From Halichondria panicea (lineage: Eukaryota > Porifera > Demospongiae > Suberitida > Halichondriidae): a stretch of DNA of 64,000 nt. Below are positions 24,443-51,400 of this stretch, one piece after another; positions within the stretch are counted from its first letter, which is position 1, and every line of letters begins with the position of its first letter. Location: positions 309,001-373,000 of the forward strand of contig NC_087387.1 in the NCBI RefSeq assembly GCF_963675165.1. The letters run 5' to 3'. Made by a program: the position numbers and the translations under genes. Below the pieces are notes generated by a model. That model worked only from the letters and a program-made list of their open reading frames with translations, made no database searches and was not told where the DNA came from.

Positions 24443-24867
24443 CTATTTCCGCGCGAGACACAATGGAAGTGTGCGCATGTAGGACCAGAAAGCCAGAAAT
24501 CGGAAAAAGCGGAAGTGAAGGTTAAATGAGTGGGCGTAGCAGGGCAATGCATTCCAAGGTTAACCCTTGACTTTGCGCAGATGTAATGAGATGCTCTTGC
24601 CTGATCACTCTACTAGTATGTTAGTAAGTAGAGAGCTGGCCAGCCTAGTTTTAAGAGTCAGGTAAGTAGACTCTTCATTGTCTGCAGTATAGAGCTAGCT
24701 ACTTGCACATGTCTGCAATAATTATGTCTGTACACTGAGCTAGATTTAGTATGATTATCATAATTATTTTAAGGTGTGTTAATTCAGCCAGTCACCTAAC
24801 TCCTACTTATACTGACTCCCCAATTTATTGTCCTGAGGTTATTTGGCTCTACTGAACACGCCGAGCC

Positions 24868-24922
24868 ACTTTTCTGACTTTCTGAGAGCCATGAATCATG
24901 GCTCTCAGAAAGTCAGAAAAGT
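24868..24922. repeat. 27-bp near-perfect palindrome
   Basis: The arm acttttctgactttctgaga... (24868-24894) is followed by one base and then its exact reverse complement (24896-24922). It is built from the same gactttc/gagag core found in each tandem unit and lies at the outer edge of the left array. Confidence 0.9.
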
Positions 24923-25007
24923 CAAAAAAGTGGTTCGAGAACGGGAACTGGAATAATTATGTTCAGTCCTGGTCTATAGACAAGTATCAGCCAATAAGTT
25001 ATGTATA

Positions 25008-26450
25008 CTGGAACTTGCTGAGAAACTTTTCTGACTTTCCGAGAGCAGTGATTCAATAACGGGAACTCTGAATATATTCAGTGGTACTCAAATTTACAAT
25101 GTTGAGGTTACTTTAATCGACTGGAACTTGCTGAGCAACTTTTCTGACTTTCCGAGAGCTGTGGTTCGTTAACGGGAACCCTGAAAAACAATATATTCAG
25201 TGCTGGTCTAGACATGCATGCAGATATCAGCCAGTATGTTGATATATATACTCAAGTTTACAATTCTGAGGTTACTTTAATCGACTGGAACTTGCTGAGC
25301 AACTTTTCTGACTTTCCGAGAGCTGTGGTTCGTTAACGGGAGCCCTGAAAAATAACATATTCAGTGCTGGTCTATAGACATGCATGCAGATATCAGCCAG
25401 TATATTGATATATATACTCAAGTTTACAATTCTGAGGTTACTTTAATCGACTGGAACTTGCTGAGCAACTTTTCTGACTTTCCGAGAGCTGTGGTTCGTT
25501 AACAGGAACCCTGAAAAACAATATATTCAGTGCTGGTCTAGACATGCATGCATGCTAATATCAGCCAATATGACTCTTCTGAGGTTACTTTAATCGACTG
25601 GGAACTTAATTGCTGAGCAACTTTTCTGACTTTCCGAGAGCTGTGGTTCGTTAACAGGAACCCTGAAAAATAACATATTCAGTGCTGGTCTATAGACATG
25701 CATGTAGATATCAGCCAGTATTTTATATAATTATACTCAAGTTACAATTCTGAGGTTACTTTAATCGACTGGAACTTGCTGAGCAACTTTTTTCACTTTT
25801 CGAGAGCTGTGGTTCGTTAATGGGAACCCTGAAAAATAATATATTCAGCATGCAGATATCAGCCAGTATTTGATATAATTATACTCAAGTTTAAAATTCT
25901 GAGGTTACTTTAATCGATTGGAACTTGCTGAGCAAGAACTATAGCTGAGAAACTTTTCAGACTTTCCGAGAGCAGTGATTCGTAAACGGAAACCCTGAAA
26001 ATATGGTCAGTGCTGCATGGTCTTAGACAAGCAGGTATCAGCCAATACGTTGATATGCCCAATTAAGATTGAGGTTACTTTAATCGACTAGAAATTGCTG
26101 AGCAACTTTTCAGACTTTCCGAGAGCAGTGCTTCGTAAACGGAAACCCAGAAAATATATTTAGTGCTGGTTTTAGACCAGCAGGTATCAACCAATACGTT
26201 GATACACTCTTCTCGGGTTAATTTAATTGACTGGGAACATGCTGAGCAACTTTTCAGACTTTCCGAGAGCATGCAGTGCAGAACTTGACCCTGAAAATGT
26301 TCAGTGTTCTTAGACAAGCATGTATCAATTAATACCTATATAATTATATACCCAAGTTTACAATTCTGAGGTTACTTTAATTGACTAGAACTTGTTGACT
26401 TTCCGAGAGCAGTGATTCGTAAACAGAAACCCTGAACATTTGTTGAAACA
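25008..26450 (+). repeat. Left-arm tandem array (~10 units)
   Basis: Units of roughly 110-180 bp, each carrying ggaacttgctgagcaacttt, a gactttccgagag core, gttcgttaacgggaaccctg, cagtgctggtct and ctgaggttactttaatcgac. Units diverge more and shorten towards the right, from about 25900 onward. No ORF is conserved between units. Confidence 0.9.
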
Positions 26451-27225
26451 CCCCTTAATATAAGGTATATTCTATACCATGCAGGATCCAACACAGTAAT
26501 GATACACAAACGATCTTCATTATTATTATAGTCAAGTCCAGTTATGTATATATTATACTCTACAGCTATACAATAATTATAGATGTAGGTATGGATATTA
26601 AGCAGGATGATAATTAATTATCATGAGGTAGGCAGTGCATGATGATGCTGCAATACTAGAGATGAAAAAGATATGAGAGTGAGTGAGGAATGCTTAGAAT
26701 GTGCTGAATCAGAGGTATACAGGCATAATTATAGTTACAACATATTAAACTGTCGATGTGTACATGCAGTGTGTTAATTACGTAATGGTTATGCTACGTT
26801 TATAGTTTTAGTTTTGTGGTATCGTGCCAGGCCAGTTTCTTAAAATAATTGTCCCCATATTGGAAGGCATGCAAGCATATCCCTACCAACGATCGGAGCG
26901 CCCCAATGATAAAGGCTTACTATACCATACACATATACCGTGACAATCTGTCAGTGGGTGAAATTGAAACCCATTAACCAACCAGAAAGAAAAGCGCATG
27001 TGTTGCGTACAGAAGAAAAAGGATGCCATCAAAGGGAGATTAAAAAGAAATTCGAGCATTAGAGGTGCAAAAATAATTATATCAATAGTTCTTGACTCAA
27101 CCAGAAAATCAAATTAAAGGAAGATTTGAGAAAACCATGCTTTAATAATTACGTCCAGTGCATTCAAGCAATCCTTAGCATCAAGTTCTAATGAGCATGA
27201 TAGACTATCCTGTAGACATATAATT

Positions 27226-29934
27226 TAGGTACAATTGCAAGTGGATAATGTCTTGCGCATTGATGTCTTTTCGAGGTATCTCATTTTGCACAAAGCAACA
27301 AAGCAATCAGCAGTTGCGTCTCCAGATTTTTTCGCTGATTTTCGATTTTTGTTAATTTTGGATTTCTGGTTCGGCTTGAGTGTGAAAGATGTTCTGAGTT
27401 GTGTGTGTCACTATGACGCTGAAAGTGAAAATTATTCGAAGCAGTGCTATATAATTATACTGAGACATCTCAATCCCAGCTAGGGCAAGGTAACTGCATG
27501 TATAAATTGTTTTATGCTGTAATAATTAACACTGTGCATTCTCTATATAATTATAATTAGCTATAACTGCAATGCATGCATGTGACTGTTTAATTTAGAA
27601 ACCAATAGATTCTGTGAGGTATGAAATCAGTTGATTGTATCTGCATGTACACATTGATGGTGTCCTGCATGCATGCATGTGTCCAATGAGAATTATTTAT
27701 AGAAGAATGAAGTTTGCTAATGTCTTCGTTCTTGATGTAATCTGCTGAAGATATCATGATCAGGTCATTTATGCATATTATATGGGAACATGCAGTTAAA
27801 ACATTCCAGTAGTTTTAAGCATCTAAATAGTGTCATACAATTTGTCTCACTTTTTCAAAACTCAGCTAGTGTATTTAAATAATTATATAGGGCATACTCT
27901 TTCAAACTGGAAAAGCTCTGTTACCTGTACTATGTGCATGCATGTGAATGGCATTACACACTATTGGTGAACTGATACTTATATGAAATGGCTGAGTGCA
28001 TGTTATATATGTACCCATGGCTATAACTATGCCATGGTATTATGTGAGATACCGTATACGTATTGTGCTAGAAATAATATACGAGCATATAAAATTATGT
28101 ATTTTGGCCAATTTTAAGGCTCCTATATAAAACGTTATGTGACATTTATTTATGCCGTTTCGTCTAGTATAAATGCCACGATTTCAATGGGAATTGTTCC
28201 CTGCATGCAGGCCTCTAATTAATTGTGCGATGTAATAATTATCATAACCGCTCGTATTAGTTAGTATATATCTCGCATTAATATAGCACTACGTTAACGG
28301 CAAGAGCATAAATAATATAAGAAGAGAAGAGTGTCGAACTACCAATACCTCTATGCACAAAACTGTGCACAAAGTAACGTGATATCCTGTCAATTGCGCA
28401 AGCTTGCGCACACATTACGCAACGCACAGAATTTGTTAGCAGTGAGTAAAGAGTGGAAGTGAAGAGGATCAACCCGACTATTGTCTCTATTTATGATTTT
28501 TGTGAAAAGATAGTCTTCTATCAGTGTGCAGTGAGCAGCTCTGAACGTTGAACGCGAACGAATATATAGCTAGAATCAGATGTCATTGTACATGCACCCC
28601 TAAAAACGTCACGGTTAACATTTTCTAGGAGATTACTAGTAAGTTTACAGTATACTTCATCACATGCGCGAGTCATGTTACTTTGTGCACATTTTTGTAT
28701 AGAGGTATCGGTATAGTTTTTCTCTGCTGATATATATTATAGGCATACATAATTATACATATCATGCATGCATATAATTATACTAGACTTTGGAATGAAG
28801 AATTTGTTCGTGTATACAGATTCCCTTGTCTTCTTTGATTATTCAATTTAGAGGTGATGATATAAAAAGAAAGAAGGGCTTGTCAATTAGTTGAGACCGA
28901 CAGACAGGCATCACTAATATGATGCCGCTGAGTATAAAACACATAATTGTAATGGACAAACACATAACATTATAGACAGATTATTAACGCTATAGCTATA
29001 GTTCTGGTAAGTTCTTATGCATGCAGTTCACCATACATCTGTCACAAGGGCATAGGTATAGTGGATTTAGAGAACAGCTTTTTGGGGTTGCTGCTAGAGT
29101 TTGTGCTAGCTATAGGTGCATGTGTGTCATAATCAATTTTAGGATCATGCAGGGATTGGTTTTGTAATTGCAGTTCTTCTATAGTTTGCATAGCTTGATA
29201 GTAGTGTATATTTCCTTAATCCATGCAAGTTTTTAACATTATGTCTTATTCCTTGGTGAACCAGTTAAGGACGCTGTTGTGGCCGTTGCATGTCTGTATA
29301 TACAATAGCTGATGTTGTCTGTTTTTAGTTCTATATAAACAGGCAGTTTTAACATATTGGGAGGCTTAGGGAGATGATTGGGTGGAAGTAGCTACTGCTG
29401 AAGTTATATAGCTTGAATTGTAAAAAAAGTTACTTGTGGATCAAATAGGCGGCTTATAACTATATATAGTTGGCTGTGAGAGAGAATAAAACCAAGAAGT
29501 GGCGGTTGGAGTATAGTTATATACCTTAAGGTGACATATTTTCGCGTGTATTAATTTCTGCTATTTCTGCGAATGAGAGTAAAATCGCAAAAATTAGTAC
29601 TCGCAAATAATTGGCCGCTCTCTTGTTTAATGTATCCAGATCGACATTTCGCAAAAAATTATACCGCAAAATGTACAAAACTGTAAAAACGCAAACAAAT
29701 CTACCTGTGAAAATATGTCACCTTAAGGTAATAAGGATTGGTTGATCCACTATACCGGCCTCTCTGGTGTATCTGTTAAAATATATAAATCTAGAATATT
29801 GCCCTATATATGTGTGAGGGAGGCTATCAGTTGGATAATTAAGTTTCAATCACACAATTAACATTTAACAGCCCCATATTAAAGCCTGTCTGGTATGTAT
29901 ACGTTGTATATATATATATATTATTATCTTGCTT
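27226..29934. other. Loop of the giant inverted repeat
   Basis: 2.7 kb of AT-rich sequence between the arms. The longest open frames are 60-80 codons and resemble nothing known. The only recognisable feature is a TA-flanked MITE at 29524-29728. Confidence 0.6.
29524..29728. mobile_element. MITE, ccttaaggtgacatatttt family
   Basis: A 205-bp element with inverted ends (ccttaaggtgacatattttcgc and, at the other end, gaaaatatgtcaccttaagg). It is flanked by TA on both sides (29522-29523 and 29729-29730). No coding capacity. The TA flanks suggest a Tc1/mariner-type mobiliser. Confidence 0.85.
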
Positions 29935-31249
29935 TGTATGTCTACGGGATAGGGATAGTCCATGCATAATGCTCATTATATAAACTTGATGCTATAAAAG
30001 GATTGCTTGAATGCATTGGATGGTTTATTCTCAAATCTTCCTTTGATTTTCTGGTTGAGTCGAGAACTATTGATATAATTATTTTTGCACCTCATCTTTG
30101 CTAATGCCAGAACACTTCATGGAATCTCTTTCTTTGACAGACTTTTCGTCAATGGTTGAAACACCTGTGGCTTGGTGTATTTAATTATAATTATGGTGTA
30201 AAAAAATTATTGACATAATTATTCATTTTACATACTGACAGATTAATTGTCACGGTATGGTTACGGTACGGCCACGACAGTAGTAAGTCTTTTTTATTGG
30301 GGCTATCCAATCTTTGGTAGAGATATAATCATGCTTGCCTTCTGTAAGCAACATAAATTATACTGTGTGTCAGGAAGTGCTTGGATGCACCAGAATCACC
30401 TGCATTACAGCTATATATAGGACATATAATTATATATCTAGAGACGATGGTGTACAATCTACAAGCTTAACTATAACGATTATTATCTACTTGCAATATA
30501 GTTTATGTTGTAACTATATACGCCTGCATGTATTTATCCAGTGAGAGTTTTCCTCACTCTCTCTCATAACTGTCTTTCAATCGCAGCATCACATCACTGC
30601 CTATATACTTCATTGTCACTGCATGCTCGTCCATATACCTATTGTATATATAGGACTGGTGTAGACTACGTATATATACACTGCCAGGACTTGACTATAA
30701 TGAGGATTGTTTGTGTATATACTGTGTTGCATGGATCCTGGTATAGAATTTAGTCTACACCCATGACACACACTATATATATTATATCAAAATAATTATC
30801 AAGACAATACACAGTATACTATACATCTATTCAAGCAAAATCTATAGTAATTAGCTGCTGACAACACACTATATATAGATGCATGCATGGTCATGCAACA
30901 AACCAGGTACACACCAGTCTATCAGCCCAGCAAAATAAAATTATAATTATAGTATAGAGTCTATGTATAGTCCGTACACTTTGATTCAATCTCTATAGTC
31001 AGAACTCAATACAGTTTCTCATGATTGAATCTTCTGTCACGAACTTACTCAAAAGGCTATCTTTGCACTGAGCCGTGAATAATAATCTTGCATCTAGTGA
31101 AATTGTAATTACCATTTGAATTACTGCCCATGGAACGTCAAGAGTCGTTCTAGTTGAGTAAAGTAACAATAACTGAAGGTATGGATGGACTGACTGCCTG
31201 CATTGCTTGTCCGAGAAATGCTTTTTATGAATTACAGTTGAATCACTAC

Positions 31250-34200
31250 ACATGGAAAGTCTGAAAAGTTGCTCCAGGAAGTTCCATGCAGTCGATTAAA
31301 GTATAGCCTCAGAATTGTAAACCTAGGTATTATCAACATAATTATTGGCTGATACCTGCTTGTCTATAAGACCAGCACTGAATATATTTTCTGGGTTTCC
31401 GTTTACGAATCACTGCTCTCGGAAAGTCAGAAAAGTTGCTCAGCAAGTTCCCAGTCAATTAAAAGTAACCTCAGAAGAGTGTATCAACGTATTGGCTGCT
31501 ACCTGCTTGTCTAAGACCAGCACTAAATATATTTTCTGGGTTTCCGTTTACGAAGCACAGCTCTCGGAAAGTCAGAAAAGTTGCTTAGCAAGTTCCAGTC
31601 GATTAAAGTAACCTCAGAATTGTAAACTTGAGAATATATCACCATACTGGCTGATATCTACATGCATGTCTAGACAAGCACTGAATATGTTATTTTTCTG
31701 GATTCACGTTAACGAACCACAACTCTCGGAGAGTCAGAAAAGTTGCTTAGCAAGTTTACAATTCTGAGGTTACTTTAATCGACTGGAACTTGAGTATATA
31801 TCAACATACTGGCTGATATCTGCATGCATGTCTATAGACCAGCACTGAATATGTTATTTTTCTGGATTCACGTTAACAAACCACTGCTCTCAGAAAGTCA
31901 GAAAAGTTGCTTAGCAAGTTCCAGTCGATTAAAGTAACCTCAGAATTGTAAACTTGAGTATATATCACCATACTGGCTGATATCTGCATGCATGTCTATA
32001 GACCAGCACTGAATATGTTATTTTTCTGGATTCCCGTTAACGAACCACTGCTCTCGGAAAGTCAGAAAAGTTGCTTAGCAAGTTCCAGTCGATTAAAGTA
32101 ACCTCAGAATTGTAAACTTGAGTATATATCACCATACACTGGCTGATATCTGCATGCATGTCTATAGACCAGCACTGAATATGTTATTTTTCTGGATTCC
32201 CGTTAACGAACCACTGCTCTCGGAAAGTCAGAAAAGTTGCTTAGCAAGTTCCAGTCGATTAAAGTAACCTCAGAATTGTAAACTTGAGTATAATTATATC
32301 AACATACTGGCTGATATCTGCATGCATGTCTAGACCAGCACTGAATATGTTATTTTTCTGGATTCCCGTTAACGAACCACTGCTCTCGGAAAGTCAGAAA
32401 AGTTGCTTAGCAAGTACCAGTCGATTAAAGTAACCTCAGAATTGTAAACTTGAGTATATATCAACATACTGGCTGATATCTGCATGCATGTCTATAGACC
32501 AGCACTGAATATTTTATTTTTCTGGATTCCCGTTAACGAACCACTGCTCTCGGAAAGTCAGAAAAGTTGCTTAGCAAGTTCCAGTCGATTAAAGTAACCT
32601 CAGAATTGTAAACTTGAGTATATATCAACATACTGGCTGATATCTGCATGCATGTCTAGACCAGCACTGAATATGTTATTTTTCTGGATTCCCGTTAACG
32701 AACCACTGCTCTCGGAAAGTCAGAAAAGTTGCTTAGCAAGTTCCAGTCGATTAAAGTAACCTCAGAATTGTAAACTTGAGTATATATCAACATACTGGCT
32801 GATATCTGCATGCATGTCTATAGACCAGCACTGCATGAATATGTTATTTTTCTGGATTTCCGTTAACGAACCACTGCTCTCGGAAAGTTAGAAAAGTTGC
32901 TTAGCAAGTTCCAGTCGATTAAAGTAACCTCAGAATTGTAAACTTGAGTATAATTATATCAACATACTGGCTGATATCTGCATGCATGTCTAGACCAGCA
33001 CTGAATATGTTATTTTTCTGGATTCCCGTTAACGAACCACTGCTCTCGGAAAGTCAGAAAAGTTGCTTAGCAAGTACCAGTCGATTAAAGTAACCTCAGA
33101 ATTGTAAACTTGAGTATATATCAACATACTGGCTGATATCTGCATGCATGTCTATAGACCAGCACTGCATGAATATGTTATTTTTCTGGATTTCCGTTAA
33201 CGAACCACTGCTCTCGGAAAGTTAGAAAAGTTGCTTAGCAAGTTCCAGTCGATTAAAGTAACCTCAGAATTGTAAACTTGAGTATAATTATATCAACATA
33301 CTGGCTGATATCTGCATGCATGTCTAGACCAGCACTGAATATGTTATTTTTCTGGATTCCCGTTAACGAACCACTGCTCTCGGAAAGTCAGAAAAGTTGC
33401 TTAGCAAGTACCAGTCGATTAAAGTAACCTCAGAATTGTAAACTTGAGTATATATCAACATACTGGCTGATATCTGCATGCATGTCTAGACAAGCACTGA
33501 ATATGTTATTTTTCTGGATTCCCGTTAACGAACCACTGCTCTCGGAAAGTCAGAAAAGTTGCTTAGCAAGTTCCAGTCGATTAAAGTAGCCTCAGAATTG
33601 TAAACTTGAGTATTAAACATACTGGCTGATATCTGCATGCATGTCTATAGACCAGCACTGAATATGTTATTTTTCTGGATTCCCGTTAACGAACCACTGC
33701 TCTCGGAAAGTCAGAAAAGTTGCTTAGCAAGTTCCAGTCGCTTAAAGTAACCTCAGAAATTGTAAACTTGAGTATATATCAACATACTGGCTGATATCTG
33801 CATGCATGTCTATGGACCAGCACTGAATATGTTATTTTTCTGGATTCCCGTTAACGAACCACTGCTCTCGGAAAGTCAGAAAAGTTGCTTAGCAAGTTCC
33901 AGTCGCTTAAAGTAACCCCAGAATTGTAAACTTGAGTATATATATCAACGTATTGGCTGATATCTGCATGCATGTCTAGACCAGCACTGAATATATTATT
34001 TTTCAGGGTTCCCGTTAACGAACCACTGCTCTCGGAAAGTCAGAAAAGTTGCTCAGCAAGTTCCAGTCGATTCAAATAACCTCAGAAGAGTATATATTAA
34101 CATAATTATACTAGCTGATATCTGTATGCATGTCTATAGACCAGCACTGAATGTATTATTTTTCAGGGTTCCCGTTAACGAACCACTGCTCTCGGAAAGT

Positions 34201-34400
34201 CAGAAAAGTTGCTCAGCAAGTTCCAGTCGATTCAAATAACCTCAGAAGAGTATATATTAACATAATTATACTAGCTGATATCTGTATGCATGTCTATAGA
34301 CCAGCACTGAATATATTATTTTTCAGGGTTCTCGTTAACGAACCACTGTTCTCGGAAAGTCAGAAAAGTTGCTCAGCAAGTTCCAGTTGATTAAAGTAAC
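31250..34400 (-). repeat. Right-arm tandem array (~19 units)
   Basis: Inverse-oriented units of about 165 bp with the core ctctcggaaagtcagaaaag, then ttgcttagcaagttccagtc, gattaaagtaacctcagaat and ggctgatatctgcatgcatg. Central units are almost identical, indicating recent amplification or homogenisation. The ends of the array are more diverged. Confidence 0.92.
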
Positions 34401-34961
34401 TTGAGTATATCAACATAACTTATTGGCTGATATACTTAATTGCTTGTATATAGACCAGGATTGAACATAATTATTCCAGTTCCCGTTCTATAATCATGGC
34501 TCTCAGAAAGTCAGAAAAGTGGCTCGGGGTGTTTCAGTATATAGAGCCAAATAACCTCTGGACAATAAATTGGGGAGTATAAGTAGGAGTTAGGTGACTG
34601 GCTGAATTAAAAATGATAATGTTAAATTCATACTAAATTTAGCTCAGTGTACAGACATAATTAATTCAGTCATTGTGCATGTAGCTAGCTAGAGTCTACT
34701 GCAGACATGTGCAAGTAGCTAGCTATTATATCAAGTCTATACTGCAGACAATGGAGAGTCTACTTAAAACTAGGCTGGCCAGCTTTCTACTTACTTACAT
34801 AGACTAGTAGAGTGATCAGGCAAGAAGATATCTCATTACATCTGTGCAAAGTCAAGGGTTAACCTTGGAATGCATTGCCCTGCTACGCCCACTCATTTAC
34901 CTTTCACTTCCGCCTTTTCCGATTTCTGGCTTTCTGGTCCTACATGCGCATGCATGAGCTT

Positions 34962-35081: not shown

Positions 35082-35606
35082 ACTGGTTTGTTTATTAGTT
35101 TTCAGAGGCTAGATTCCTTACTGAAATGTAAGTGGTTGAGTAGCCTTGCCACTACGACCCACTGAAATTAGGCCATTGACGTCATAAAATATCGACGTTT
35201 CTCTTCTAAGTATCAAAATTATTGATAGAGGGTAAACTGCATGTGCACAAGTTTTAGTTAGTAGTATTATAGACACGACTATTTTGCTTGTTCAGATGTT
35301 ACTATAGACTCAGCAATAATTCCCAAAATTAATATTATTATTACGGTTCAATAGCTGGGTACATCCTACATCCTGCTGATCCATAACCTGTTGACTATTG
35401 ATATTTAGCAGTTGAATGGCCTCAGTTTTGCTTTGACTAGACTGAACTCTGGGAACTGTGTATGACTTAATTTCACACTTACACAGTTTAGCTTTCTTTC
35501 CTGTAAAGTCAGCCCTTGTTCTATATGGCTGTGCATAACAAGGGATTCATTGCTGTATTTAAAAGGTTCAAAACTCTAGGTATCAAACAATTTCAAGCGA
35601 GTCGTC
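35082..35606 (+). promoter_or_regulatory. Conserved upstream block of A1
   Basis: Nearly the same sequence precedes all three A genes (also from 40728 and 47942). It contains a perfect CRE-type palindrome TGACGTCA at 35177-35184 and a TATA-like tatttaaa at 35556-35563, about 45 bp before the ATG. Conservation in three copies may reflect recent duplication rather than selection. Confidence 0.6.
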
Positions 35607-37908
35607 ATGACACCCACACTCTCTTTGCTCGCATTATGCAGTTCTGTGCTGCTCGTTCAAGCTCAATTCAACTGTCCGGACATTTCCGAAGTCTGTGACA
35701 GTAATCCCTGTACAAACGGTGCTCGCTGTCCAAGATTCCTCAATTCTGAATGCAGAGTGAACACTTGTGATGGAATATGCTCACCAATTTTCTTCTTTCG
35801 AGGACGCAATGTCACAAGTCGATGCGAAACGCTCCGAACATGTGTGTCGAGAAGATGTCCTCCTCGTAGGTCGCAGTGTGTTGATGAGGTAGTGGAGTCT
35901 TGCAACAGGAGAGGCCGGTGCAGACAGAGGCTTGAAGGAAGATGTATAGTACCTCCCACAACACAGCAACCCAATAGTAAGTCCATGCATGCATACTGCA
36001 CTGTATTGCATGATGCAGGCCCAACACACCACCCCCTACCATAAATAATTTGTTACGACACTTTAATTGTATATATAACCTTATGGGATTAATCAGTGCA
36101 TTAATTCACTTCTCCCTGCAGCAGTCTCAACTTCAGCCACTCCCCTACCAACTGACAGCACCCCCTTCACTACGTCACCAACAGGGAATCCATTTACTAC
36201 CAACCCTTCACCGACTACACCGACTAATTCTTCTTTATGTACCCAAGACTGTTCCAGTTTGGGTCTGCAGTGTGTTCCAATTTCGTCTACTGTAAATGGC
36301 GTAACTATAGTAACTGGGACATGTTTGTCACCGATTGGACGCAATTGTGAAGACATTGATTGAGCTGATAATCAAGAGTGTAGTATACAATCGTTTCCTG
36401 AGAGAAATATAACATTTTCACAATGTACTCCTTCTGATAATTCCACACAAATGATGACTATGTTCTCATGTGCAACAACACAATGCCCTGAGGGAACTGT
36501 GTGCATTGATTTACGTTCTGGAGACATGCAAGTAACGGGGATATGTTTAGCAACAAACTGTGCGAACACTAACTCTTGTCAGTCGGGTGATGTCTGCACA
36601 TTAGTTCCAGATGAATTTAGATTGGACAATATCAGTTCTGTCTGCGTTCCAGGTTCTGTTCAGTTCCAGCTTGGAACCGAGACGTGTGAGCAAAGTGATC
36701 GTGTATGTCCAAGTCGTACGATTTGTCAAGAAGTATTTCTTGATGACCTTCCTGGTACCATTTGTGTGCTTAGTCAACCTCCTGCGGATTGCAGTCAAGT
36801 TAACTGCAGAGAAGATGAAGAGTGCTTAGTAGTAACGTCTTTTGCTTCACGCTCTTCAGTTAGCTGTCTTCCGAATAACACTTTCCCTCTCCTCTTACAA
36901 ATTTTGGAATTCCTTGGTATAGTGGAAAGTTCAACAGCAACTCCTACTTCAGTTACCTCAACAGAATTACTTACAACCCTCTCCGGCACTCTTGTTCCAC
37001 CAACACCCTCGTCAAATACGAGTTGTCCCTTCACTTGCTCGTTTGGAACAACTTGTGAGTTTTTAAATGGATTCCCAACCTGTGTACAACCAACAACATG
37101 CACAGACGATTTTACTGCATTCTGTATGCAAACCGGTTCTGTCTGTCGAGAATCCAATGGCACATCACGATGTGTTTCTCCAAGCAGTTGTGAAGAACTA
37201 GCGACTGTGTCACCATGCCCTAATGGATCGCAATGTGTTGTAATACCTCCGTTTGTATTTCCAGGCCTTAATGATACCACAGCAACCTGCTTGCCTCTGA
37301 TTGGTCGTAGCTGTGAAGAGATAACTTGTAGTGAAAATGAAGTGTGCTTAGTGACAGAGCTAGCAGAGAGGGAATTGACAGCTGCTCAATGTGAACTATC
37401 CCGAAATGTAATCTCTCTTATACCTGAGACGTGTGCTACTCTGCAATGCAACGAGGGAAGCGTGTGTGTCGATCTACAGATAAATGGATTCCCTGTGACA
37501 GGTGCATGCCTAGAAACAAACTGTGGAAACAGTGGAAATAACACGGAATGTGATGGTGGTAGTAGGTGCATCGAGGTGCCTTCCGAATTTGAAATACCGG
37601 CAGAATCGTTGTGTGTTTCTTTTAATGTGGATCCTCAGCTTGGAACTCAGACATGTGCTGAAAATGGACGAGTCTGCGAGTCGTTCCAAGTTTGCAACGA
37701 GGCATTCATTAATGGTAGTATAATTGGTACGGCTTGTAGCCAGTTTTCAAGTATCATTGCTTCAACTTGCCAAGCCTCCATGTGTGAAGATGGTGAAGAA
37801 TGTATACTTACAACAGTTGAGGGCTTTGGGACAGTGCAGAATTGTTTATCTACCGAAGCTGCTGATACATCAGCAATGTTTTTTGAGTTTATTTTCGCAA
37901 ACATTTAA
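35607..37908 (+). pseudogene. A1: secreted Cys-rich protein gene with an in-frame TGA
   Basis: Exon 1 (35607-35976) encodes a signal peptide (MTPTLSLLALCSSVLLVQAQ) and a Cys/Arg-rich domain. Exon 2 (36122-37908) encodes two Cys-rich modules joined by Pro/Thr/Ser linkers. I do not recognise the family; the modules repeat patterns such as CATTQCPEGTVCIDL and TGxCL-TNC. The frame is open except for a TGA at 36361-36363, where A2 and A3 have the Cys codon TGC (DCPDNQE, DCADNQE). Translation would stop after 203 residues; otherwise it would run 718 codons. It lacks the middle exon present in A2 and A3. It faces B1 convergently. A recent nonsense mutation is most likely; recoding or an assembly error is possible. 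Confidence 0.6.
36361..36363 (+). other. In-frame TGA at a conserved Cys codon of A1
   Basis: The sequence reads gacattgat TGA gctgataatc. A2 has tgc cctgataatc and A3 has tgc gctgataatc in the same place. The frame is then open for a further 514 codons. Confidence 0.9.
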
Positions 37909-38311: not shown

Positions 38312-38916
38312 TTAACATACATCATGGTCAATATGCAGACCATTTAACTTTTCCTGTATACATACAGTATAATGCAAGTCACTAGCGGAGTATGTACTGT
38401 TGCTATGGTAATCTACAAATCTATCCACAAGAGCCTTCTGAAAACTTCCACCTCCAACAGTCAGTAGCAGTCTACCGTCAAACAGACTGGCTTCTTCGAC
38501 CAAAGAAACGAATCTTGCATTCGATGTATACGATGATGATCCATTGATATCCTGTGGAACGTATTCTGATGCATTAACAGTTAACATAGAGATCATTTTG
38601 TGTGCCTCCTCTTTGCAGTCTTTAGCGGGATGCCAGTGCCCTTGATACTGACAGGCATCAGTACCGTGTTCGCCAATGTCTTTGATAAATATTGTTCGAT
38701 TGAGTGGAATCTGCATCTTATTGGAGACTGCCTCTAGAAGCAGCTGAACTCTCCTCATGCAGCAGCTGTAAAAACCAGTTTGATTTGAACTGTTTGTATT
38801 CTTGTGTGAATTGAATGCAAACTCCAACAACTTCGCGAACCGAATGTGAACAGAAATGTAGTCGTTTGGTTTTAGTCTCTTGGATTTCACAAATTGAGCA
38901 GCTTGAGATTTTACTT
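38312..38916 (-). pseudogene. B1: truncated O-fucosyltransferase-like gene
   Basis: Only the C-terminal ~200 residues of the B family remain, from SQAAQFVKSKRLKPNDYISV to the shared end LNGLHIDHDVC. Homology to B3 stops abruptly at about 38916, where repeat R1 begins. The N-terminal half and the membrane-anchor exon are missing, so no functional enzyme is expected. Confidence 0.85.
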
Positions 38917-39490
38917 GTCATGTTTGAGAGATAAAAGAATTTGCCAATTTGGCGATACCATGGATAGCCCATGGTCCGAGGCCAAAAAATGTCAAATTTA
39001 GGCTCCGAAGAAGTTTTGGATTGAAACACATCATTTGAAAGGTCTCTTTCTAAGTTTTCAGAAAATTAGAATATTTTTGACATTGAATGAACGGTACTCA
39101 AGTTAATGGCTGTTGAAAGATGTTCCCCCTCCACAATTTATCAATGGTTCGGGGACTCTTTCAGCTGCTATAACTTGAATTCTGTGGATCCAATGTCAAA
39201 AATATTATGATTTTCTGAAAGCTCAGAAAAAGACCTTTCAAATGGTGTCATCAAACTTCGTATTTGAGAGATAAAAGTATTTGCCAATTTGGCGATACCA
39301 TGGATTATATATAGCCCATGGTCCGAGGCCGAAAAATGTCAAATTTAGGCTCCGAAGAAGTTTTGGATTGAAACATAATTATCATTTGAAAGGTCTCTTT
39401 CTAAGCTTTCAGAAAATTAGAATATTTTTGACATTGGATGAACGGTACTCAAGTTAATGGCTTTTGGGATGTTTTGAGAGCCTGTTGCAT
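38917..39490. repeat. Dispersed repeat family R1, copy truncating B1
   Basis: About 1.5 copies of the R1 repeat, matching 19780-20995. The gcgataccatggat...agcccatggtccgaggcc core occurs twice. It directly replaces the 5' part of B1. Confidence 0.8.
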
Positions 39491-40445: not shown

Positions 40446-41262
40446 TACACTCGTATAAACACAGTATACTACAATCATGTGTAAGCTAAAAGTGCATTGT
40501 ACAATCAATTGTATGTACATTAAAATTATATGAACATAATTATAATTTTTGTGTATAATTATAATATAATTATATACACACACATACACATGCACACGAC
40601 ACCTATACACCTGTAATAACAATGAGAGGATATACCACACCTAAGAGGAGAATATATGCACCCATATATCCTCCGCTACCGTGGTTACTCCGAGGCGGAG
40701 CTGAGGGGTATGTAACCATGGTATTTTTACTGGTTTGTTTATTAGTTTTCAGAGGCTAGATTCCTTACTGAAATGTAAGTGGTTGAGTAGCCTTGCCACT
40801 ACGACCCATTGAAATTAGGCCATTGACGTCATAAAATATCGACGTTTCTCTTCTAAGTATCAAAATTATTTATAGAGGGTAAAATGCATGTGCACAAGTA
40901 GTAGTATAGACACGACTATTTTGCTTGTTCAGATGTTACTATACACTCAGCAATAATTCCCAAAATTAATATTATTATTACGATTCAATAGCTGGGGATT
41001 TTATACATCCTGCTGATCCCATAACCTGTTACTATTGATATATAGCAGTTGAATGGCCTCAGTTTTTGCTTTGACTAGCCTGAACTTTGGGAACTGTGTA
41101 TGACTTAATTTCACACATACGACAGTTTAGCTTTCCTTCCTGTAAAGTCAGCGCTTGATGATGGTGTGTATGACTGTGCATAATGCATGCATAACAAGGG
41201 ATTCATTGCTGTATTTAAAAGGTTCAAAACTCTAGGTATTAAACAATTTCAAGCGAGTCGTC
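40446..41262. other. Cassette 2 upstream region
   Basis: Starts with a block (taatacactcgtataaacac...) also found at 47668, marking the duplicated unit's left edge. It contains the palindrome block 40651-40735 and the conserved A-gene upstream block from about 40728, with CRE-type TGACGTCA at 40824-40831 and tatttaaa at 41212-41219. Confidence 0.65.
40651..40735. repeat. Nested hairpin block at cassette 2 border
   Basis: taccgtggttac (40688-40699) pairs with gtaaccatggta (40722-40733) with one mismatch. cctccgc / gcggag and a gaggagaatat...atatatcctc stem lie around it. The same block occurs at 47855-47941, but in cassette 1 the giant inverted repeat takes its place. Confidence 0.65.
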
Positions 41263-43759
41263 ATGACGCCCACGCTCTCTTTGCTCGCATTATGCAGTTC
41301 TGTGCTGCTCGTTCAAGCTCAACTCAACTGTCCGGACATTTCCGAAGTCTGTGACAGTAATCCCTGTACAAACGGTGCTCGCTGTCCAAGATTCCTCAAT
41401 TCTGAATGCAGAGTGAACACTTGCGGTGGAATATGCTCACCAACTTTCTTCTTTCGAGGACGCAATGTCACAAGTCGATGCGAAACGCTCCGAACATGTG
41501 TGTCGAGAAGATGTCCTCCTCGTAGATCGCAGTGTGTTGATGAGGTAGTGGAGTCTTGCAACAGGAGAGGCCAGTGCAGACAGAGGCTTGAAGGAAGATG
41601 TATTGTACCTCCCACAACACAGCAACCCAATAGTAAGTCCATGCATGCATACTGTACTGTATACTGCATGATGCAGGCCCAGCACACCCCCTGCTATAAA
41701 TAATTTGTTATGACACTTTAATTGTATATAGCCTTATAGGGTTAATCAGTACATTAATTTACTTCTCCCTGCAGCCGTCTCAACTTCAGCCACTCCCTTA
41801 CCAACTAACAGCACTCCCTTCACTACGTCACCAACAGGGAATCCCTTTACTACCAACCCTTCACCGACTACACCAACTAATTCTTCTTTATGTACCCAAG
41901 ACTGTTCCAGTTTTGGTCTGCAGTGTATTCCAATTTCGTCTACTGTAAATGGCGAAACTATAGTAACTGGGACATGTTTGCCACTGTTTGGACGCAATTG
42001 TGAAGACATTGATTGCCCTGATAATCAAGAGTGTTTTATACAATCGTTTGCTGAAAGAAATATAACATACTCGCAATGTGCTCCTTTTTCTGACATTTTT
42101 CGAGTGATGCCCTCATGTGCAACAACACAATGCCCTGAGGGAACTGTGTGCATTGATTTACGCTCTGGAGACATGCAAGTAACGGGGACATGCTTAGCAA
42201 CAAACTGTGCGAACAGTAACTCTTGTAACACTCAGTTGGGGGAAGTTTGCACATTAGTTCCAGGTGAATTTGGATTTGACAATATCAGTTCTGTCTGCAT
42301 TCCAAGTTTTACTCAGTTTGAGTTCGGAACTGAAAGTTGCGAGCAAAGTGGTCGAGTATGCCCTGACCTTACAGTTTGTCAAGAAACATTTCTTAATGAC
42401 GATATTTTCGGTGCTTTTTGCATTGTTAACATACTTAACACGGATTGCAGTCAAGTTAGCTGCAGTGAAAATGAAGAGTGTGTAACAACCTCTCTTTTTT
42501 CTAGCTCTCAGAGTGTAGCTATCTGTACGCCAAACAGCATTATCCCTCTCCTCTTACAAATTTTGGAAGCCCTCGGTCTAGTGGAAAGTTCAACAACTAC
42601 CCCACCAAATAGTAAGTCCATGCATGCAAATTGTACTATATACTGCTGTAAGCAATGCAGACCCATCCCTTTGTGTGTAATATTGTTTTGTCTGGTAAAC
42701 ATAAATAACGTATTCAAACATGTATAATTATAGGGTTAATTAGATTTGCTTCTCCCTGCAGCAGTATCAACTTCAGCCACTCCCCTACCAACTAACAGCA
42801 CCCCCTTCACTATGTCACCAACAGGGAATCCATTTACTACTCTTGTTCCACCAACACCCCCGTCAAATACGAGTTGTCCCTTCACTTGCTCGTTTGGAGC
42901 AACTTGTGAGTTTTTAAATGGATTCCCAACCTGTGTACAACCAACAACATGCACAGACGATTTTACTGCATTCTGCATGCAAACCGGTTTTGTCTGTCAA
43001 GAATCCAATGGCACATCACGATGTGTTTCTCCAAGCAGCTGTGAAGAACTAGCGACTGTGTCACCATGCCCTAATGGATCGCTATGTGTTGTAATACCTC
43101 CGTTTATATTTCCAGGCCTTAATGATACCACAGCAACCTGCTTGCCTCTGATTGGTCGTAGCTGTGAAGAGATAACTTGCAGTGAAAATGAAGTGTGCTT
43201 AGTGACAGAGCTGGCAGAGAGGGAATTGACAGCTGCTCAATGTGAAGTATCCCGAAATGTAATCTCCCTTATACCTGAGACGTGTGCTACTCTGCAATGC
43301 AACGAGGGAAGCGTGTGTGTCGATCTACAGATAAATGGATTCCCTGTGACAGGTGCATGCCTAGAAACAAACTGTGGAAACAGTGGAAATAACACAGCAT
43401 GTGATGGTGGTAGTAGGTGCATCGAGGTGCCTTCTGAATTTGAAATACCGGCAGAATCACTGTGTGTTCCTTTTAATGTGGCTCCTCAGTTTGGAACTCA
43501 GACATGTGCTGAAAATGGACGAGTCTGCGAGTCGTTCCAAGTTTGCAACGAGGCATTCATTAATGGTAGTATAATTGGTACGGCTTGTAGCCAGTTTTCA
43601 AGTATCATTGCTTCAACTTGCCAAGACTCCATGTGTGGAGATGGTGAAGAATGTATACTTAGAACAGTCGAGGGCTTTGGGACAGTGCAGAATTGTCTAT
43701 CTACCGACGCTGCTGATACATCAGCAATGTTTTTTGAGTTTATTTTCGCAAACATTTAA
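41263..43759 (+). CDS. A2: secreted Cys-rich multi-module protein, intact
   Basis: Exons 41263-41632, 41775-42611 and 42762-43759 join in phase to 734 residues. Residues 1-20 are a signal peptide (MTPTLSLLALCSSVLLVQAQ). Exon 1 adds a Cys/Arg-rich domain. Exons 2 and 3 each begin with a Thr/Ser/Pro linker (STSATPLPTNSTPFT) followed by a Cys-rich module with many NxS/T sites. Both introns have the same donor (ata|GTAAGTCCATGCATGC) and acceptor (tctccctgcag), showing that exon 2 arose by internal duplication. I recognise no known family. The segment CSFGATC fits the C-x4-S/T-C pattern used by protein O-fucosyltransferase 1. It is likely secreted. Compared with A3 it lacks one module. Confidence 0.8.
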
Positions 43760-44180: not shown

Positions 44181-45952
44181 TCAACATGCATCATGGTCAA
44201 TATGCAGACCATTTAACTTTTCCTGTATACATACAGTATAATGCAAGTCACTAGCGGAGTATGTACTGTTGCTATGGTAATCTACAAATCTGTCCACAAG
44301 AGCCTTCTGAAAACTTCCACCTCCAACAGTCAGTAGCAGTCTACCGTCAAACAGACTGGCTTCTTCGACCAAAGAAACGAATCCTGCATTCGATGTATAC
44401 GATGATCCATTGATATCCTGTGGAACGTATTCTGATGCATTAACAGTTAACATAGAGATCATTTTGTGTGCCTCCTCTTTGCAGTCTTTAGCGGGATGCC
44501 AGTGCCCTTGATACTGACAGGCATCAGTACCGTGTTCGCCAATGTCTTTGATAAATATTGAGTGGAATCTGTGTCTTATTGGAGACTGCCTCTAGAAGCA
44601 GCTGAACTCTCCTCATGCAGCAGCTGTAAAAACCAGTTTGATTTGAACTGTTTGTATTCTTGTGTGAATTGAATGCAAACTCCAGCAACTTCGCGAACCG
44701 AATGTGAACAGAAATGTAGTCGTTTGGTTTTAGTCTCTTGGATTTCACGAATTGAGCAGCTTGAGATTTTACTTTCGAGCTGAATGGTATTTGGGTAAAG
44801 GGTAGCACACAATGATGCATAGTTTTTGGATCTGTAAATGGTCTTGTAAATTTTCCTTGCCAGCTAACGAAAAGAACACTGGCATTTAGTTTGGAGGAGT
44901 CCAAGTAGTTTACTAAATGGTCCATAAGTTGAACTAGTGATAATGAAACGTCACGATTTACACAAAACACTTCTTATGGAGAATTTTTGGTCGTCAGTAA
45001 TCGTTCTGTTAAAATCTTTCTGCTGCTCTTTTCTTAGTACATCTTCAATGGCTGGTGTCAGCGATTTGTATGCTGTATCCGTGCAAGTAAGAATTGGTTT
45101 GTCTTTATTACTTGAAAAAATACTCTTTAAAGAGGAGTCCATTGTCTTGTGAATCTCCCTCGGTAGTACAAATATGTGAGGTGAAAAGTAAACAAAAATA
45201 ATGTTTCTAAAGGATTTTCTCAAGAATGAATCAATCAGACTTTGTTTATTGCCTCCAACACACTCGGTATATCTCTTGTGGAATAACTTCATGTCAAGAA
45301 GCTCTTGAATATCGATATAGTTACTGTCAGGATTCATTTGAAATCCGCTCATTCTCGAGTTTAGAACAAAAGGTTCTACACCTGTAAAATTCCATCTTGT
45401 AGATCTAGCTAGGGACAGAAATTCATTGTAATGGGCAAAAGCATTCGTAAACTGCTCCGCATACACCATTGATATCATGTATCGTTTAAAATCAACTTTT
45501 TCTACAGTAGTCTGCTCTTTCACTTTGACTACTTTGTTTGTTGACTGGCTTTGAAAACCCCATTTCGATTTTAGCGACAACAAAAGATGATTCTGCAAAA
45601 ACAATCAATGTACACTACCTCAACCTTTATAGTTATATAGTCACACAAGCACACGTACTGATAGACTGAATAACTTTTAATAATGGCCCTTTGGTTAACT
45701 TCTAAATAGTAGTGTAGCTAAATTTATATAGTCACAAGTGAAACTACTAAAAAATGGAGGCTATAGATAGTATATATATATATAGTTCTAGAATTAACCA
45801 ATTTATGTAGAAAATCAATTCTAGCTTACTGCAGTGACTCCAGGCCTGTAGGTCCGCAACAAGTTATTGTTCAGGTCTACTCGGAAATATATAACACAGC
45901 AACTGAACACTGTCAGCAACAGTAGAGTTGTGTAGACCCAGGAGAGTTTCAT
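44181..45952 (-). pseudogene. B2: frameshifted O-fucosyltransferase-like gene
   Basis: Full-length relative of B3, with membrane-anchor exon (ATG at 45952) and main exon. Compared with B3 it has an 8-bp deletion near 44560 (atattgagtgg for atattgttcgattgagtgg) and a 2-bp deletion near 44975 (cttcttatgg for cttctttgatgg), both breaking the frame. In-frame indels also occur: 9 bp lost near 45225 and 6 bp gained near 45405. It is probably a pseudogene. Its intron keeps the empty target site (45707-45708) of the MITE found in B3. Confidence 0.85.
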
Positions 45953-47596: not shown

Positions 47597-48411
47597 CTGC
47601 AGGGGTGGTGGTGGTAAGAGAAGGATAAGGTAGGAGGGAAAGTGAAGCAGAAACAGGACACATTGCACACAATACACTCGTATAAACACAGTATACTACA
47701 ATCATGTGTAAGCAAAAAGTGCATTGTACAATCAATTGTATGTACATTAAAATTATATGAAATTATAATTTTTGTATATAATTATAATATAATTATATAC
47801 ACACACATGCACACGACGCCCATACACCTGTAATAACAATGAGAGCTATGTATAGGACTAAAAGGAGGATATGCACCGCATATATCCTCCGCTACCGTGG
47901 TTACTTCGAGGCGGAGCCGAGGGGTATGTAACCACGGTATTTTTACTGGTTTGTTTATTAGTTTTCAGAGGCTAGATTCCTTACTGAAATGTAAGTGGTT
48001 GAGTAGCCTTGCCACTACGACCCACTGAAATTAGGCCATTGACGTCATAAAATATCGACGTTTCTCTTCTAAGTATCAAAATTATTGATAGAGGGTAAGC
48101 TGCATGTGCACAAGTTTTAGTTAGTAGTATTATAGACACGACCATTTTGCTTGTTCAGATGTTACTATATAGACTCAGCAATAATTCCCAAAATCAATAG
48201 CTGGGGATTTTATACATCCTGCTGATCCATAACCTGTTGACTATTGATATATAGCAGTTGAATGGCCTCAGTCTTTGCTTTGACTAGCCTGAACTTTGGG
48301 AACTGTGTATGACTTAATTTCACACATACTATGGCTGTGCATAACAAGGGATTCATTGCTGTATTTAAAAGGTTCAAACTCTAGGTATCAAACAATTTCA
48401 AGTGAGTCGTC
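47597..48411. other. Cassette 3 upstream region
   Basis: From about 47668 it repeats the cassette 2 border, including the nested hairpin block (47855-47941) and the A-gene upstream block with TGACGTCA at 48040-48047 and tatttaaa at 48362-48369. Confidence 0.65.
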
Positions 48412-51400
48412 ATGACGCCCACACTCTCTTTGCTCGCATTATGCAGTTCTGTGCTGCTCGTTCAAGCTCAACTCAACTGTCCGGACATTTCCGAAGTCTG
48501 TGACAGTAATCCCTGTACAAACGGTGCTCGCTGTCCAAGATTCCTCAATTCTGAATGCAGAGTGAACACTTGTGGTGGAATATGCTCACCAACTTTCTTC
48601 TTTCGAGGACGCAATGTCACAAGTCGATGCGAAACGCTCCGAACATGTGCGTCAAGAAGATGTCCTCCTCGTAGGTCGCAGTGTGTTGATGAGGTAGTGG
48701 AGTCTTGCAACAGGAGAGGCCAGTGCAGACAGAGGCTTGAAGGAAGATGTATTGTACCTCCCACAACACAGCAACCCAATAGTAAGTCCATGCATGCATA
48801 CTGCACTGTACTGCATGATGCAGGCCCAACACACCACCCCCTACCATAAATAATTTGTTATGACACTTTATAATAGGATTAATCAGTACATTAATTCACT
48901 TCTCCCTGCAGCAATCTCAACTTCAGCCACTCCCCTACCAACTAACAGCACCCCCTTCACTATGTCACCAACAGAGAATCCATTTATTACCAACCCTTCA
49001 CCGACTACACCGACTAATTCTTCTTTATGTACCCAAGACTGTTCCAGTTTGGGTCTGCAGTGTGTTCCAATTTCGTCTACTGCAAATGGCGTAACTATAG
49101 TAACTGGGACATGTTTGCCACTGTTTGGACGCAATTGTGAAGACATTGATTGCCCTGATAATCAAGAGTGCTTTATACAATCGTTTGTTGAAAGAAACGT
49201 AACATATTCGCAATGTACTCCTCTTTCTGAAACTTTCATTTTTCGAATGATACCGTCATGTGCAACAACACAATGCCCTGAGGGAACTGTGTGCATTGAT
49301 TTACGTTTTGGAGGCATGCAAGTAACGGGGACATGTTTAACAATAAACTGTGTGAACAGTAACTCTTGTAACACTCAGTTGGGGGAAGTTTGTACATTAG
49401 TTCCAGATGAATTTGGATTTGACAATATCAGTTCTGTCTGCGTTTCATTTTTTACTCAGTTCGAGTTTGGAATTGAAACTTGTGAGCAAAATGGTCGAGT
49501 ATGTCCTGGCATTACAGTTTGTCACGAAGAATTTCTTGATGACGTTCTTTTTGGTACCTTATGCAATGTTAACCTACTTAACATGGATTGCAGTCAAGTT
49601 AGCTGCAGTGAAAATGAACAGTGTGTAATAACCTCTCTTTTTTCTAGCTCTCAGACTATAGCTGCCTGTTTCCCAAACAGCATCTTCCTTATCCTCTTAC
49701 AAATTTTAGAAACCCTCGGTCTAGTGGAAGGTTCAACAACTACTCCACCAAATAGTAAGTCCATGCATGCAAATTATACTATATACTGGTGTAAAGCAAT
49801 GCAGACCCATCCCTTTGTGTGTAATATTGTTTTGTCTGGTAAATATAAGTAGAGTATTCAAACATGTATAATTATAGGGTTAATTAGATTTACTTCTCCC
49901 TGCAGCAGTCTCAACTTCAGCCACTCCCCTACCAACTAACAGCACTCCCTTCACTACGTCACCAACAGGGAATCCATTTACTACCAACCCTTCACGGACT
50001 ATGTGGTAATCTGGTAATGTGATTTAGGAAATCACCAGAACCTTGGACTTGTAAACAGGATATTAATAGATGTAGAACCTTCTAGATGTTAGTGTAGTCT
50101 TGTACTAGTTTAATCTAGTAACTTCTTATTCTGGAACATTCTTACTGTTCTGTTTTTGTATAATTATTTGTGCACGTTTTATATCTATCAGAGTTCTAAT
50201 TATTTAAGTTATTGACTACAAGACATTACAGACTACACCGACTAATTCTTCTTTATGTACCCAAGACTGTTCCAGTTTTGGTCTGCAGTGCATTCCATTT
50301 CCGCTTACTGTAAACGGCGTAACTACAGTAACTGGGATATGTTTGTCACCGATTGGACGCAATTGTGAAGACATTGATTGCGCTGATAATCAAGAGCGTA
50401 GTATACTATCGTTTCCTGAGAGAAATATAACATTTTCGCAATGTACTCCTTCTGATAATTCCACACAAATGATTACTATGTTCTCATGTGCAACAACACA
50501 ATGCCCTGAGGGAACTGTGTGCATTGATTTACGCTCTGGAGACACGCAAGTAACGGGGACATGTTTAGCAACAAACTGTGCGAACACTAACTCTTGTCAG
50601 TTGGGTGATGTCTGCACATTAGTTCCAGATGAATTTAGATTGGACAATATCAGTTCTGTCTGCGTTCCAGGTTCTGTTCAGTTCCAGTTTGGAACCGAGA
50701 CGTGTGAGCAAAGTGATCATGTATGTCCAAGTCGTACGATTTGTCAAGAAGCATTTCTTGATGACCTTCTCGGTACCATTTGTGTGGTTAGTCAACCTCC
50801 TACGGATTGCAGTCAAGTTAACTGCAGAGAAGATGAAGAGTGCTTAGTAGTAACGTCTTTTGCTTCACGCTCTTCAGCTCACTGTCTTCCGAATAATACT
50901 TTCCCTCTCATCTTACCAAGTTTGGAATTCCTTGGTATAGTGGAAAGTTCAACAACTACTCCTACTTCAGTTACCCCAACAGAATTACTTACAACCCTCT
51001 CCGGCACTCTTGTTCCACCAACACCCCTGTCAAATACGAGTTGTCCCTTCACTTGCTCGTTTGGAACAACTTGTGAGTTTTTAAATGGATTCCCAACCTG
51101 TGTACAACCAACAACATGCACAAACGATTTTACTGCATTCTGTATGCAAACCGGTTCTGTTTGTCGAGAATCCAATGGCACATCACGATGTGTTTCTCCA
51201 AGCAGCTGTGAAGAACTAGCGACTGTGTCACCATGCCCTAATGGATCGCAATGTTTTGTAATACCTCCGTTTATATTTCCAGGCCTTAATGATACCACAG
51301 CAACCTGCTTGCCTCTGATTGGTCGTAGCTGTGAAGAGATAACTTGTAGTGAAAATGAAGTGTGCATAGTGACAGAGCTGGCAGAGAGGGAATTGACAGC

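Follow-up and report, generated by a model that had tools for sequence, protein, structure and literature searches.

A 64,000-bp stretch of the Halichondria panicea genome (C11:309001-373000 of a 131-Mb genome in 39 contigs; hereafter, the window) contains a 10,467-bp element with kilobase-long inverted arms at positions 24478-34944. This element is very probably a non-autonomous cut-and-paste DNA transposon of foldback architecture, mobilised in trans by a transposase encoded elsewhere. The evidence comprises its ends, its target-site duplication, unoccupied counterpart sites, dispersed and fairly recent copies, and its lack of coding capacity, all established in this analysis; the cut-and-paste mode and mobilisation in trans are inferred. 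Why foldback transposons build kilobase tandem-repeat arms is unsettled, and among the systems compared here, Galileo is the only one in which extra transposase sites have been shown. Fairly young copies of the element, together with a small sister foldback that matches it in terminal hexamer and target and differs in its arms, allow the idea that arms serve as docking sites to be tested by comparison. A duplication of 6 bp with GCGC at its centre also speaks against the enzyme groups to which the described foldbacks compared here belong.

Ends, copies and insertion sites

The limits were set by aligning the tips of fetched copies. The element is a complete transposon of the form TGTAGG...CCTACA, and the hexamer TGCGCA is directly repeated on both sides of it (24472-24477 and 34945-34950, identical and unstranded). 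A preliminary description, made from the letters of the window, had recognised a foldback plan with outer limits at 24473 and 34950. The plan was borne out, and further copies share the ends and have target duplications; the two limits fall inside the duplications and were moved inward to 24478 and 34944.

Many relatives of the outermost 428 bp of the left arm occur across the genome. A 22-bp tip was found at 71 places with up to 3 mismatches, and its reversed control gave one match. Paired by hand, the 71 tips formed 23 convergent pairs 7.5-11.7 kb apart and 2 tiny pairs (82 and 154 bp), with 21 left unpaired. The second tip of a further long copy, c10b, exceeds the mismatch limit. The preliminary description had made its case depend on a second copy with the same ends, and the finding survived this search of the genome. 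An assembly artefact is excluded because more than 20 copies lie at different places, with different flanks in those fetched. An 801-bp loop probe gave 41 genome matches (40 of 71 candidate regions scored), 30 of them with a length of 480 bp or more. Judged by coordinates, 28 of these long matches belong to copies that have a tip, and those at C8:1461967 and C12:5169876 were left unassigned. Eleven single tips have no loop match among those listed (C1:3807465, C1:11049921, C1:15262397, C6:1091272, C6:1100233, C6:1148875, C8:898507, C10:3235549, C11:2589596, C11:3041840 and C17:3492147). Aligned over 9,315 columns, the window copy and its nearest relative, at C11:6.49 Mb, show 105 mismatches (1.1% substitutions) and 93 gap positions. 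The copies are dispersed and fairly recent. No exact match of a 26-bp tip was found in viral contigs.

Exact 6-bp duplications were present at 14 of the 16 long pairs for which both ends were fetched within the mismatch limit. Lengths from 3 to 10 were tried, and none matched at any length other than 6. These 16 were tested out of the 23 long pairs. Copy c10b was left out for its second tip, c11c because the stretch fetched contains 5,000 consecutive N and a single tip, and c3, c4, c1b, c1d, c7b, c8, c6 and c5d because each was cut at 10 kb and had one end fetched. A shared target preference alone does not readily explain the duplications because 6 of the 14 exact ones differ from TGCGCA (TGCGCG, TGCGCT, AGCGCA, TACGCC, GGCGCA and AGCGCG). 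Among 49 tips, the bases of GCGC at positions -5 to -2 are kept in 47, 49, 46 and 48, respectively; the tip itself starts with TGTAG in 48 and with TGTAA in one.

Direct evidence that insertion creates a 6-bp duplication comes from copy c15. Its joined flanks align across the junction with stretches inside c10a and c1d, at 97.5% over 325 columns, with a 3-bp length difference a few bases to the right of the junction. Each of these unoccupied counterparts has one TGCGCA, and c15 has two.

Two further target features were considered and rejected. A preference for CpG islands was dismissed on a median CpG observed/expected ratio of 0.49 in the flanks of 16 copies, compared with 0.60 around the 28 GCGC sites found in the window outside the element. 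Around 3 of 16 copies, that of the window among them, the palindromic repeat CCTCGATT... occurs within 150 bp (6 sites, 4 belonging to the window copy), and the rest of the window has 2 sites. It is above background, yet no general target.

At C5:3634627-3655160 (partly covered by L027 and L028), two full copies and a tip fragment follow one another. Where fetched, their junctions consist of one TGCGCG hexamer each, as would result if newer copies had entered the duplication of an older one. The N run mentioned above, which may be an assembly gap, adjoins the single tip of c11c in L015-L016 (C11:6224000-6235300).

Organisation of arms and unit arrays

The arms of the window element are 2.7 kb (left) and 5.0 kb (right) long. 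The left arm (plus strand) begins with an outer, or flanking, domain at 24478-24832, whose tip TGTAGGACCAGAAAGCCAGAAATCGG belongs to the 'L-type' clade of the tip tree; unit-like sequence begins at 24833. It continues with a tandem array of ~165-bp units at 24833-26436 (8 matches of at least 100 bp and partial ones) and an inner domain at 26437-27201, a degraded inverted match to blocks within 29966-30752 (three blocks, 68-79% identity). An unstranded middle domain, or loop, without coding capacity occupies 27202-29965 (2.76 kb). The right arm (minus strand) comprises an inner domain at 29966-31253, delimited by the inverted-match alignment, a tandem array of ~165-bp units at 31254-34538 (20 matches of at least 100 bp, with blocks of units duplicated), and an 'R-type' outer domain at 34539-34944, which ends in CCTACA and was assigned by tip alignment and tip tree.

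Between 23000 and 36500, 148 inverted pairs of at least 60 nt were counted. The left arm at 24478-26436 aligns with the right arm at 32850-34944 at 76% over 2215 columns, and weaker blocks extend inward to 27201 and 29966. Of three control stretches from the same window, two had no inverted match and one had two short ones (29 and 42 columns). The tandem period is 164-166 bp, with further periods of 152 and 318-496 bp. Kilobase arms of ~165-bp units, as in the preliminary description, are hence confirmed, and its inner limit of 27200/29935 is good to about 30 bp.

The same description had noted a 2.7-kb loop without recognisable protein, and no long open reading frame (ORF) was found there. 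The longest ORF of the whole element encodes 98 aa, against a median of 109 aa in 100 mononucleotide shuffles. In the 16 other copies scanned, the longest was 157 aa, in c1a. Ten of the 17 copies share a frame of ~113-117 aa (152 in c14); the corresponding sequence of the window, 28393-28658, is in two pieces and lies within a small inverted pair of the loop. This second inverted pair (28340-28713; 43 columns, 88%) is possibly another nested element. A ~207-bp insertion at 29523-29730, with inverted ACCTTAAGGTGACATATTTTCGCG-like ends, is probably a nested miniature element.

The preliminary description had also offered a rearranged satellite; on that reading, the 165-bp units, inverted and rearranged, would be primary and the ends incidental. 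The tandem arrays reach 23 units, and full units within one arm average 97% identity, as such a satellite would have it. With one unit as query, 498 matches were counted (40 of 71 candidate regions scored), and ~150 listed matches were compared with the tips by eye. All of the latter lie in copies or inward of a tip, except an inverted fragment at C1:13912263 and 13912622; no free satellite array was seen among them. The long copies, moreover, share tips, and most of those examined have target duplications. The satellite origin has accordingly lost ground and is highly improbable.

The third idea was a hairpin-RNA locus; the arms would then be kept because a transcript folds into long double-stranded RNA that feeds small RNAs. 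The element sits between genes, and its arms include stretches such as 323 nt at 94% complementarity. How the two arms of one element relate to each other bears on this point. In a tree of 46 tips, the arms of one element do not group in 15 of the 17 two-ended copies and do so in c10c and c5c (38 inner forks, 8 strongly supported and 20 drawn open; one insertion-interrupted arm of c10a is unsure). In c10c and c5c, the two arms are 99.3% and 100% alike, respectively, across their outer 450 bp, which speaks for the hairpin, and the arms of c5c are identical also to one arm of c14. In the other 15 copies, the outer arms are 77-89% alike over the aligning part. By contrast, the nearest counterparts of the left tip of the window copy in the rest of the genome match it at 97-100%. 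Complementarity is thus mostly not maintained. Likewise, with arms that are ungrouped and only this much alike in those 15 copies, conversion between the two arms of an element is mostly absent. A search of the window against Rfam gave nothing at the gathering threshold, and a hairpin transcript is unnecessary to explain dispersed copies with target duplications. We regard a hairpin locus as very improbable, and the non-autonomous foldback transposon as the better account of the arms.

The arrays behave according to arm. Unit matches of at least 100 bp number 7-10 in one arm and 8-23 in the other in 16 of the 17 two-ended copies (8 and 20 in the window); c10c has two R-type arms with 14 and 6. 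Across 154 full units, mean identity is 97.2% within an arm, 92.3% between the two arms of an element, and 95.7% between elements. As judged from the unit sequences, homogeneity follows arm type rather than element because units of the R arms of five related copies are 97.9% alike between copies, compared with the 92.3% between two arms of one element. The three full left-arm units of the window are 99.4-100% identical to c11b and at most 97% to each other or to the right arm. In the right arm of the window, units of 100% identity recur 334, 660 or 994 bp apart, a mark of recent duplication of unit blocks.

Proposed mobilisation and candidate enzyme

The transposase must act in trans because the element has no gene. 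An enzyme made elsewhere in the genome would recognise the TGTAGGACC... tips, excise the ~10-kb element, and join it to a GCGC-centred target with a 6-bp stagger, from which the 6-bp duplication would result. By analogy with Galileo, the arrayed units, with their tip-like motif, may be reiterated docking sites for the transposase, and the number of units in the R-type arm may drift by unequal exchange or slippage of unit blocks. We infer the docking role from the likeness of tip and unit, the reiteration of a tip motif in the sister foldback, and the Galileo binding assays.

The unit carries CGGAAAGTCAGAAA, which is similar to CAGAAAGCCAGAAA of the tip at 12 of 14 bases. The joint motif CRGAAAGYCAGAAA has 37 matches in the 64-kb window, all within the element (shuffle mean, 0.09). 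The sister foldback, L047, is a 1,025-bp element at C16:4824409-4825433 with an inverted match of 77% over 1083 columns; GCGCNTGTAGGGCC, found at 12 genome places, was the route to it. It has the same TGTAGG end, GCGC target and TGCGCA duplication as the 10-kb family, and its arm sequence is different. Its own tip motif, CACTAAACARGAAC, has 8 matches at up to 2 mismatches (mean of 0.01 in 200 mononucleotide shuffles). The arms of the 10-kb and 1-kb families have no detected similarity to each other. When L047 and L048, a single sister tip at C3:4586290, were compared with the 17 elements by BLAST, the 8 best rows were all of L048, for a 26-32 bp segment in the outer arm of some copies, and none was of L047. 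A pair of L047-type tips 1.45 kb apart was seen at C5:4294000-4295452.

The Pfam integrase profile PF24764 (rva_4), which we assume to cover IS3EU-type transposases, has at least 156 matches in the genome and none in 14 control genomes. The search scored 150 of 234 candidates for PF24764 and 150 of 389 for PF00665. None of the listed matches of either profile lies inside a tip pair. The PF00665 matches closest to tips were rejected as partners and taken as coincidence: those near the single tip C1:11049921 lie ~10 kb interior to it, and others lie outside C10:3235549 (by 0.55 kb) and outside both a C14 copy and the tiny pair on C1 (by 3-5 kb). L048 lies 9.4 kb from a PF24764 match. This link was dropped because no second place matched the L048 tip region (40 of 194 candidates scored).

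Other tip variants were also sought. TA-ended tips at GCGC, GCGCNTATAGGNCC, occur at no place in the genome. Sites of the GCGCNTGTCGGACC type occur at 103 places (100 listed); they are mostly unpaired, mostly have C before TGT, and were rejected as a tip variant since they look like an unrelated repeat. This repeat, which carries GCGCCTGTCGGACCTC, lies for example at C1:6975878 and C14:534237, with similar sequence at window position 57121 (minus strand), and 11 of the 40 places matching L048 are within 200 bp of a copy of it.

Several points weigh against the mobilisation and docking proposed here. Comparison of the listed profile matches with the 71 tips by eye revealed no autonomous partner. 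The duplications of two long copies are mismatched (c16b, two mismatches; c5b, one), and one of the two tiny pairs has a mismatch, the other being exact. Most of the 37 motif matches are repetitions of a single tandem unit, and both sequences had been seen before the pattern was defined; for these reasons, the tip against one unit is the fair test. On this test, 8 of 300 random pieces of the window and 7 of 300 shuffles of the unit reached the 12/14 likeness; the resemblance is suggestive, and modest on its own. Some of the 8 motif matches in L047 are likewise inverted copies of one another. With R units 97.9% alike between copies against 97.2% within an arm, the sole sign of recent array change is the duplication of blocks in one arm. 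Transposition itself was not observed.

The genes of the window look like those of an animal. The window contains genes for a fucosyltransferase and a biopterin-dependent hydroxylase, and kinase-like (kinase end) and Fz-like stretches below Pfam cut-offs. In a Pfam scan of 10 ORFs of the flanks and window, 5 had matches, all host-type, including the two sub-cut-off ones (Fz and kinase end); the other 5 had none. A gene pair is repeated three to four times in tandem. It consists of a cysteine-rich, signal-peptide-like protein on the plus strand (frames at 35580-37908, 41236-43759 and 48406-51926) and a ~479-aa protein on the minus strand (38312-38917, 44181-45604, 52311-53750 and 60741-62159); one frame of each was scanned, and neither gave a Pfam match. 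The element lies just upstream of the first pair, and the sequence from ~35081 is repeated at 40727-40847 with 99% identity.

Comparison with known systems

By its plan, the family belongs to the foldback class: kilobase inverted arms, internal tandem repeats and a middle domain are combined with dispersed copies that have the same ends and duplications. The closest published plan is that of Tetris of Drosophila virilis, with duplications of 8-10 bp, arms of up to 1.7 kb and no known autonomous partner (PMC4079207). Both have a three-part arm (a flanking domain, a tandem outer domain, of ~220-bp repeats in Tetris, and an inner domain), a non-coding middle and a variable number of units; both lack a known autonomous partner and share ends with a smaller element. 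The present family differs in its arms of up to 5 kb, its ~165-bp units, the absence of free satellite arrays among the unit matches listed, and its duplication around GCGC, exactly 6 bp long in those 14 of 16 pairs.

Galileo also has long arms with internal tandem repeats, and its secondary transposase sites in the arm repeats were demonstrated by binding assays; its transposase, with a THAP domain, is known, whereas the window element codes for nothing (PMC3688188). The terminal bases and duplication of Galileo differ from those found here. Elements of this kind, Galileo among them, can cause inversions via recombination between copies.

Alternatively, the transposase that moves this transposon could be of a Mutator, P/Galileo or hAT type, as it is for the described foldbacks. 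The foldback-like Galileo is a member of the P superfamily, Tm1 is listed as Mutator/Foldback, and hAT families with 6-bp duplications exist. However, the duplications of Tetris are longer (PMC4079207), and TGTAG ends fit the TGTNR rule of integrase-like transposons (PMC2836005). An enzyme of these groups is a real possibility, though less likely than not.

The integrase-like superfamilies fit better because of the ends and the 6-bp duplication. IS3EU and GingerRoot make 6-bp duplications and have TA..TA ends, with TG..CA occasionally in GingerRoot (PMC10045372, PMC12730594). The duplication of the present family agrees with this, and its TG..CA ends correspond to the occasional form of GingerRoot and not to the TA..TA of IS3EU; long foldback arms are not mentioned in the consulted parts of these reports, and no transposase is tied to the present element. 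Ginger1 and Ginger2/TDD share the TGTNR ends, given for Ginger and most Gypsy elements, and Ginger1 prefers a CpG-containing target, CCGG or CCGT. They differ in their 4-5 bp duplications, their terminal inverted repeats of ~40-270 bp and the transposase inside (PMC2836005); the 6 bp at GCGC found here agrees neither with this length nor with a CCGG/CCGT or RTATAY target. Polinton/Maverick elements have AG..CT ends and a set of viral-type genes, and were set aside on the TG..CA ends and the lack of coding capacity.

An integrase-like transposase of the IS3EU/GingerRoot type is our tentative first choice of enzyme, though less likely than not, and this step carries lower confidence than the transposon itself. 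Going further, one such lineage or a relative might mobilise a whole foldback set in this genome, in which the 10-kb and 1-kb families each reiterated their own tip motif and foldbacks evolved repeatedly; this is a speculative and rather unlikely extension. If true, the foldback plan would have been reached more than once, by elements that belong to neither the Mutator nor the P group, as a means of attracting more transposase. The literature searched showed no foldback that has a 6-bp duplication at GCGC, and the statement is limited to that literature. The family is a foldback by architecture, and its duplication departs from those of Tetris and Ginger.

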